Assembly (NCBI RefSeq): GCF_003369835.1
Contig: NZ_QPMJ01000001.1
Span: forward strand, 744,001-808,000
DNA length: 64,000 nt
Direction of reading: 5' to 3'
DNA from: Halorussus rarus
GTDB lineage: Archaea > Halobacteriota > Halobacteria > Halobacteriales > Haladaptataceae
Shown here: one piece after another, positions 42,051 through 43,347 of the stretch
How positions within the stretch are numbered: the stretch's first letter is position 1
Layout: every line of letters begins with the position of its first letter
Notes under the pieces: model-generated
What the model was told of the DNA's origin: nothing
The model's database searches: none
Seen by the model: the letters and a program-made list of their open reading frames with translations, nothing else
Position numbers and translations under genes: made by a program

Positions 42051-42105
42051 GGAAATCGGACGCCGCCGTGTCGTCCTTTCGCGCTCGACCGATTTTTCAC
42101 CGCTG

Positions 42106-42265
42106 GCGCGCGCTGGCGGACCCTCGTGGTCCGCCAGTGCGTGCGAGGGATGACTGAGCGATCGGAGGGAGCGAAGGAAGAGGCTGGGGAGGGACGAGGC
42201 TCGCGGTCGCGGTGCGGGGCGGTGCGGGACAGAGGTGACGGCAGTAGCTAGCTCCACCGAATCAG
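42106..42265. repeat. Left copy of an inverted repeat flanking the DUF420 gene
   Basis: About 150 bp that reappears, inverted and diverged, at 43025-43215. The best-conserved cores are GGTGACGGCAGTAGCTAGCT (42234-42253, reverse complement at 43046-43065, perfect) and GCGGTGCGGGGCGGTGCGG (about 42208-42228, one gap or mismatch in the other copy). It also contains a perfect 10-bp hairpin, CTGGCGGACC-CTCGT-GGTCCGCCAG, at 42113-42137. No frame makes a plausible protein. Confidence 0.75.
42113..42137 (+). terminator. Perfect 10-bp hairpin after the ABC exporter operon
   Basis: Stem CTGGCGGACC / GGTCCGCCAG with loop CTCGT, 63 nt after the permease stop and within the left repeat copy. A TTTTT run (about 42093) precedes rather than follows it, so termination is only a possibility. 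Confidence 0.4.
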
Positions 42266-42295
42266 TCGTCTTCGGAATCGAATTGACCGCACTCT

Positions 42296-42916
42296 CTACC
42301 GTCGCAGCGAAAATACGAACGGCGCAACCGCGGCCATGTACTCGTCGACGCCGTAGACGTGGTTGAGCATCAGGTACGTCACGATGCCGAGCGCGAGGCT
42401 CAGACTCCACGCGCCGGCCGCCCAGCGGCCGACCTTCGCGTGAGCGGTGTCCCGGAGCTCCGCGGGCGTGTGGGTCAGTCCGAGCACGACGGCGTGGAGC
42501 ACCACGGGGACCGCGACCACCGACAGCACGATGTGGATCGCCAGCATCGCGAGGTAGGCGTAGTAGACCGGCCCGGTCACGGCGATGGACTTCTCGCCGC
42601 CCCCGCCGACCTTCACGAGGTAGAGCACCAGGAAGGCAAGGATGAGGGTGAACGCGGTCAGCATCGCGGCGCGGTGCTTGCGGACCTCGCCCTTGCGGAT
42701 CCAGCGCCACCCGAGCAGCAGCGATGTGAGCGCGACGGTGTTCACGACCGCGATGGCGTGGCTCAGCAGGTCCACGGTCGGGCGTTCGAGCTCCGGGTAG
42801 ATGGGGAGGAGGCCGGCGAACGTCCCGAGCACGAGCACGTAGCCGAGTATCGAGAGGACCGCAGTCGCGGCGCGCGGGTTGTCCTTCACCCGGCGCTTTG
42901 CGGTTGTGGTCGCCAT
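42296..42916 (-). CDS. DUF420 / CtaM-like membrane protein
   Basis: 206 residues, six helices, with His residues in LLSHAIAVVN, RKHRAAM, IHIVLSVVAV and LNHVYGV. Matches the DUF420 family; members such as bacterial CtaM are needed to mature aa3-type oxidases. Located beside the ctaB fusion and ABC exporter, so an oxidase assembly role is well supported by context. It lies between two inverted repeats and is on the opposite strand to the exporter. Confidence 0.88.
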   Translation of the reverse strand: MATTTAKRRVKDNPRAATAVLSILGYVLVLGTFAGLLPIYPELERPTVDLLSHAIAVVNTVALTSLLLGWRWIRKGEVRKHRAAMLTAFTLILAFLVLYLVKVGGGGEKSIAVTGPVYYAYLAMLAIHIVLSVVAVPVVLHAVVLGLTHTPAELRDTAHAKVGRWAAGAWSLSLALGIVTYLMLNHVYGVDEYMAAVAPFVFSLRR

Positions 42917-43347
42917 GTCCGGTCGTTGGGACTATCGACTCAAGTGTATTGCTGTCCGTCCTCGAACGATTTTGGAAGTTCGAGTTGCCACGTGCAGATC
43001 ATTTTCCGACACCACTCGACGGTGAGCGGACGGACGACACCACGAAGCTAGCTACTGCCGTCACCGATGAGTTTCCGCACCGCCCCGCACCGCGACGGCC
43101 TCACCCCTCCCCAGCCGCCTGCGCTTCTCGGCCTCCACTCCGTTCCGGCCTGCGATGCTCGTCCCTCGCACACGTCGGCGCGGCCACGAGGCCCGCGCCA
43201 GTGCGCGCCGGTGTCGGAAGAAGCGATAGCTCACCCGCGGTACAACGCGTCGCCGTCCCCGTTCTACAACTACGGTTTCACGAACCCAAACGAACTTTCA
43301 GCAGGGTTTCCGTAACTGTCAAAGCCGAACGTGTTGAAAACACGGGT
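42917..43347. other. 431-bp intergenic region with the right repeat copy and a promoter
   Basis: Between the divergent DUF420 gene and the methylmalonyl-CoA mutase subunit gene. It contains the inverted-repeat copy (43025-43215) and an AT-richer leader (43271-43347). No convincing gene; frames crossing it read as low-complexity Pro/Arg/Ser. Confidence 0.6.
43025..43215. repeat. Right copy of the inverted repeat flanking the DUF420 gene
   Basis: Reverse complement of the left copy at 42106-42265, with perfect identity over 43046-43065 and recognisable similarity across about 150 bp (for example CGCCCCGCACCGCGACGG and CCCCTCCCCAGCC at 43080-43115). The two copies face each other around a 760-bp unit holding one gene. 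Confidence 0.75.

Follow-up and report, generated by a model that had tools for sequence, protein, structure and literature searches.

The two facing repeats around the DUF420 gene of Halorussus rarus are probably independent copies of an old dispersed element, PATE-like and non-coding, that was once mobile and is now mostly fixed in position, rather than parts of a switch for the gene between them. Both lie within the window, that is, the whole stretch of 64,000 nucleotides analyzed (positions 744,001 to 808,000 of contig NZ_QPMJ01000001.1), to which all plain coordinates below refer.

A dispersed family behind the inverted repeats

The inverted match on the two sides of DUF420 that had been recognized in a sequence-only reading is real, with a perfect 20 bp (42234-42253 and 43046-43065), and the arms also resemble each other in inverted orientation over 25 nt (96%), 22 nt (77%), and 19 nt (89%). 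However, a search of the H. rarus genome with the left arm found 49 places including itself (48 other significant matches), on four contigs and both strands, among which the right copy was only about the 35th best match. The arms are thus two members of a dispersed family, and their similarity is far beyond chance because both belong to it, but they are not each other's closest relatives in this genome. The description as a pair of inverted repeats holds for this locus but misleads at the scale of the genome. The same reading had allowed for a chance pairing of sequence that is otherwise unique; instead, it recurs many times, in about 60 copies across the genome. Its suggestion of a pair of miniature elements came close, although the element lacks terminal inverted repeats and the two copies are independent within this large family.

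The boundaries of both copies were reset from the family alignment (35 to 49 copies, sharp ends). The left copy (42104-42253, plus strand, 150 bp) occupies the convergent intergenic region between the stop codons of the ABC-2 permease and DUF420 genes. At its left end is hairpin I (42107-42145, plus strand), a covarying stem that folds in RNA prediction, followed by an invariant GAGGCTGGGGAGG-NN-YGAGG block (42180-42199, plus strand) that was located by a genome-wide motif search and evolves slowly between sister species, and by the right-end oligonucleotide GTGACGGCAGTAGCTAGC (42235-42252, plus strand, located by a search for the right-end motif), with its core at 42239-42252. Beyond the DUF420 gene (42296-42916, minus strand; PF04238, E = 3.3e-34), the right copy (43046-43210, minus strand, 165 bp) sits between the divergent starts of DUF420 and a B12-binding mutase subunit. 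Its right-end oligonucleotide (43047-43064, minus strand) faces that of the left copy, tail-to-tail, with 795 bp between the right ends; its GGCTGGGGAGG block, from the same genome-wide search, is at 43099-43118 (minus strand) and its hairpin I at 43167-43207 (minus strand), where the inner stem has a sequence unlike that of the left copy and is still paired in the alignment.

Structure of the element

In the aligned copies, the element runs from a left end YGGCGCGCGC through hairpin I, GYGCGAGGGA, and a variable second hairpin to (A/C)GGCTGGGGAGG-NN-TGAGGC, a GCGGT-rich stretch, and finally GTGACGGCAGTAGCTAGC(T). The GGCTGGGGAGG block is invariant, and the core of the right end is CGGCAGTAGCTAGC. 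Sizes range from about 110 to 270 bp, most copies having 135 to 165 bp and those of about 270 bp having smaller elements nested inside. Boundaries in the family alignment are sharp, with unrelated flanks between copies, and pyrimidine-rich sequence follows the right end. The two ends (CGGCGCG... and ...CGGCAGTAGCTAGC) are unrelated, so there are no terminal inverted repeats. Neither was any target duplication found, as matches between left and right flanks were no longer than in shuffled pairings (58, 92, and 53 of 300 shuffles were as high). One copy (L051) has ACTGCAGT on both flanks, which we treated as a coincidence. There is no open reading frame in the element. The left end has a strong covarying palindrome, the right end only the palindromic core AGCTAGCT.

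Covariation of hairpin I was scored on an alignment built without the structure. Its cells were paired in 98.1% of cases versus 87.6% in shuffles, with 57 double changes versus 16.9, and sliding the partner by one column made pairing fall to about 20%. On the plus strand G.U cells outnumbered A.C cells (34 versus 4; binomial P = 6e-7 if cells are treated as independent, which they are not), an asymmetry that, with this reservation, favors a fold of plus-strand RNA or single-stranded DNA over a symmetric cruciform. In the inner stem (columns 16 to 19) double changes were frequent and G.U was entirely absent, a pattern that suggests replacement of the whole tip rather than stepwise change. An Rfam scan of the element gave chance-level matches only, far below gathering scores.

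Copy number and genomic context

The 4.37-Mb genome of H. rarus contains about 57 to 60 copies, spread over all four large contigs and both strands. The right-end motif, with up to three mismatches allowed, was matched 60 times versus 7 for a reversed control, and the GGCTGGGGAGG block was matched 61 times versus 14 for its control. A composite or autonomous longer version was sought and discarded; none with both ends was seen in this genome, since 59 of 61 right ends have a left end 60 to 330 bp upstream. No right end (0 of 61) overlaps a predicted gene, predicted genes covering about 80% of the window. According to the simple gene predictor used, the neighboring-gene contexts are evenly mixed (19 ++, 14 +-, 14 --, and 13 -+), with no orientation bias.

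This context bears on the idea that the element works between genes as a 3'-end module, either bidirectional or similar to a transcription terminator. The strong hairpin, the pyrimidine-rich sequence past the right end, and the tail-to-tail dimers described below would all suit such a role, but convergent gene pairs flank only 14 of about 61 copies and divergent pairs flank 13, and the dimers show no preference for convergent sites. Because the context of copies and dimers alike speaks against it, we rejected this explanation, to which we attach almost no probability.

Nested elements and tail-to-tail dimers

A second, smaller element of about 45 to 55 bp, consisting of two tandem hairpins with variable stems (TC-stem-GGCTCG-stem-CGGYG), was found nested within copies of the main one, with hairpin I and GCGAGG as frequent sites, both in H. 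rarus (L013, L018, L025, L027, L032, L036, L038 to L040, and L045) and in its relatives (L095, L099, L104, L105, L117, L121, and L153). Between sister species, hairpin I of one orthologous copy is filled by a double hairpin of about 46 bp (L153) and its counterpart is empty (L152), with a clean junction.

At the loci of named Halorussus genomes, 17 of about 34 units were tail-to-tail pairs. Such dimers (L095, L096, L098, L101, L106, L108 to L110, L112 to L114, L117, L119, L120, L124, and L125) often combine two right-end types, GCCTCGGCAGTAGCTAGC and GAGGCTCAAGCAGTAGCTAGC. Their spacer measures 21 to 37 bp, mostly 33 to 36, and is constrained in length, not in sequence. Within H. rarus, four tail-to-tail neighbors lie less than 2 kb apart versus 0.42 expected at random (P of about 0.001, 5,000 simulations), and the pair around DUF420 is one of these four. 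Single genes also stand between facing copies, as DUF420 does, at L046 and L027, where the copies are 1,499 and 893 bp apart; judged from sequence only, these are putative HAD-type and KptA/Tpt1-like genes. Comparison of the sister species G004 and G015 revealed a 23-bp spacer between facing right-end cores that is inverted from one to the other (L146:1486-1508 versus L154), so that small inversions between facing cores do happen, while the dimer spacer at another locus (L147/L155) is not inverted between the same two species. Hairpin-mediated template switching is sufficient to explain the inverted spacer.

Orientation of DUF420 in the genus

The sequence-only reading had proposed that the repeats delimit an invertible segment or a recombination hotspot that would flip DUF420. 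In most Halorussus genomes the gene is oriented as it is here, converging on the permease gene and diverging from that of the mutase subunit. It is flipped in three species, G002, G007, and G016 (L129, L128, and L139, compared with L130, L131, L134, and L136), together with a fructosamine-kinase-like gene (PF03881), which in H. rarus is not beside DUF420. No element copy was found at the flipped block in any of the three, and in the two species checked for long inverted repeats, G002 and G007, none was found at the ends of the block. Gene order among relatives therefore speaks against both proposals, as the flips of DUF420 do not coincide with the element and the orientation here is that of the genus majority.

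Recombination between the facing copies that flips the gene is hence very unlikely in our judgment. It would be favored by the perfect facing 20-bp cores, by the excess of close tail-to-tail neighbors, by the flips of the DUF420 block in other species of the genus, and, indirectly, by the spacer inverted between G004 and G015. Against it stand, besides the majority orientation and the flipped species that carry no element, the lack of any recombinase nearby and the finding that the similarity between the two copies does not exceed that among other family members.

The history of the two insertions can be read in part from the relatives. The right copy has a counterpart in G011, at the same place and in the same orientation (L136:1857-2007), whereas the left copy is absent from G011 and, among the genomes compared, was seen only in H. 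rarus. For this reason the two copies probably arrived separately, and the right one appears to be the older, although its counterpart in G011 could reflect another insertion at a comparable site. The pair around DUF420 thus probably results from two separate events, with no switching of the gene, and more generally a facing pair of such copies should not be read as an invertible switch.

Age and rate of change

The sister species G004 and G015 are 93.8% identical over 5 kb. All eight element loci sampled were common to both, including three that at first seemed unshared, and five loci of H. rarus coincide with loci in these species, at about 85% identity or less. Since the sampled loci are shared in this way and the right copy recurs in G011, most copies are old. 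A clean filled/empty pair of the main element was not found among these genomes, as the three candidate loci were occupied in both sister species, and one site (L221) is vacant in H. rarus but too diverged to define a junction. It is consequently from copy number and sharp ends that we infer past mobility.

Orthologous copies have diverged by 17% in their flanks, by about 10% in the element interior, and by only 4 to 5% in the GGGGAGG block and the right-end core. The conserved blocks (12/266, 4.5%) thus change about four times more slowly than the flanks (332/1,927, 17%; Fisher P = 3e-9). Even these sister species, G004 and G015, have different hairpin tips. The motif that precedes the right-end core is lineage specific, being GTGAC in 33 of 39 copies here and GCCTC in 18 of 25 in H. 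litoreus. At sites shared with relatives the copies of H. rarus carry GTGAC while the relatives often have other motifs, as expected from concerted evolution or from co-evolution with a partner.

A functional element would account for the slowness of the blocks, the species-specific motif, and the stable positions no less well than a relic would. We considered, tentatively, that the element is a maintained structured site (plus-strand RNA, single-stranded DNA, or protein-binding DNA) for which dispersal is secondary, with roles such as chromosome organization or RNA processing. It may, with a probability well below an even chance, be a structured class-wide intergenic family held by selection, whose right-end motif would co-evolve in each species with a candidate trans-acting partner, protein or RNA; if so, nearly all copies in a genome would share the lineage motif even though at least some positions predate the species. 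Beyond the three traits just mentioned, the excess of G.U over A.C and the tail-to-tail pairs, with their spacer of constrained length and unconserved sequence, argue for it. The arguments to the contrary are that copies have no orientation or context bias with respect to genes, that transcription as untranslated regions is unlikely for those in divergent promoter regions, that presence at the DUF420 sites varies between species, and that hairpin tips are freely replaced; moreover, gene conversion between copies could mimic both the slow evolution and the shared motif.

The explanation that we prefer remains a PATE-like element, once mobile. It would be a short, single module with a left-end hairpin and a fixed right-end oligonucleotide that most likely spread in the past through haloarchaeal intergenic DNA by means of a trans-acting enzyme recognizing the folded plus strand. 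Most copies would then have become fixed and been passed on vertically, as seen at the small sample of loci compared. Selection, or else conversion between copies, may have preserved the hairpin and the two slowly diverging blocks, while hairpin tips would change when they are replaced as a whole and when the smaller double-hairpin elements insert, changes that are visible in the sister species. At DUF420, a separate event would have added the left copy to the older right one.

Distribution across Halobacteria

Of 195 Halobacteria genomes searched with a covariance model (E ≤ 1e-4), 92, belonging to 30 of 65 genera, had matches to the element. The class-wide matches that were inspected have hairpin I, GCGAGGGAYGAG, and CKGGGGAGGYGTGNGG in common and differ in their right ends (for example, GGACTGAAAGGGGC). 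The same element core with a right end of the type GGACTGAAAGGGGC or ATGAAAGGGGC is widespread in other haloarchaeal genera (L170, L173, L177, L178, and L180), and one copy of H. rarus itself (L035:1001-1111) ends in ATGAAAGGGGC. A gapped motif scan of named genomes gave matches only in Halorussus (H. litoreus, H. halobius, H. ruber, and H. aquaticus) and in one Halobacteriales MAG. The element is also present on haloarchaeal plasmids. A viral origin was considered and dropped, as phage records and viral contigs gave no match and the plasmids were the only such source of matches.

Small dispersed repeats of haloarchaea are poorly catalogued, and the covariance model found this one in almost half of the Halobacteria genomes sampled; apart from PATEs, we found no earlier description of it in the open-licence literature. 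It offers a testable case of an element that looks mobile yet has fixed positions and slowly evolving blocks, together with a species-specific end motif, dimers of constrained spacer, and smaller elements nested in its hairpins.

Comparison with known systems

The REP and REPIN sequences of bacteria, which are associated with RAYT transposases, are numerous short intergenic hairpin repeats that form inverted pairs with a short spacer and have GTAG in their conserved end. The element shares all these traits, including GTAG within the conserved end, but it is a unit of about 150 bp, its hairpin is variable rather than fixed in sequence, and its genome has no Y1/RAYT-type transposase. Like MITEs, it is small, non-coding, multicopy, and intergenic; unlike them, its single unit lacks terminal inverted repeats and target duplications.

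The closest resemblance is to the PATEs, which were described together with the SMR-A repeats in Haloquadratum walsbyi (PMC3119063). PATEs have no terminal inverted repeats, no target duplication, palindromes near their termini, and a conserved terminal oligonucleotide; small repeats insert into their palindrome, IS605-type transposons are related to them by their ends, and strain-specific insertions show their mobility (PMC3119063). The element likewise is short, non-coding, and heterogeneous in sequence, and it matches PATEs in lacking terminal inverted repeats and target duplications and in having a near-terminal palindrome, invaded by smaller repeats, and a conserved terminal oligonucleotide.

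This whole list would favor a PATE in the strict sense, a non-autonomous IS200/IS605-type derivative that a Y1 transposase would move in the form of single-stranded DNA, a reading that we nevertheless regard as improbable. Y1_Tnp (PF01797) is absent from the 99.98% complete genome of H. rarus, although the control search was positive in Haloferax volcanii. The genome has one TnpB versus about 60 elements, and none of 30 TnpB loci sampled from about 140 in the genus ends in element sequences, the single element match near them (L206) being a complete, separate element. Only one near-terminal palindrome is clear, too. Thus, neither the Y1 transposase search of the genome nor the sampled TnpB loci yielded a mobilizing enzyme, and we call the element PATE-like and not a PATE because its tie to IS605-type transposons was tested and not borne out.

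The nested inserts resemble SMR-A in entering the near-terminal palindrome of a larger element, but they are about 45 to 55 bp long, with two tandem hairpins joined by GGCTCG and ending in CGGYG, whereas SMR-A has about 110 bp and inverted terminal repeats (PMC3119063). Aside from having no detected link to IS605-type transposons, the element differs from PATEs in its one clear hairpin, at the left end, where a PATE has two near-terminal ones. In contrast to PATEs, it also keeps its positions between species, shows genus-wide homology with a species-specific right-end motif, and forms tail-to-tail dimers with a constrained spacer.
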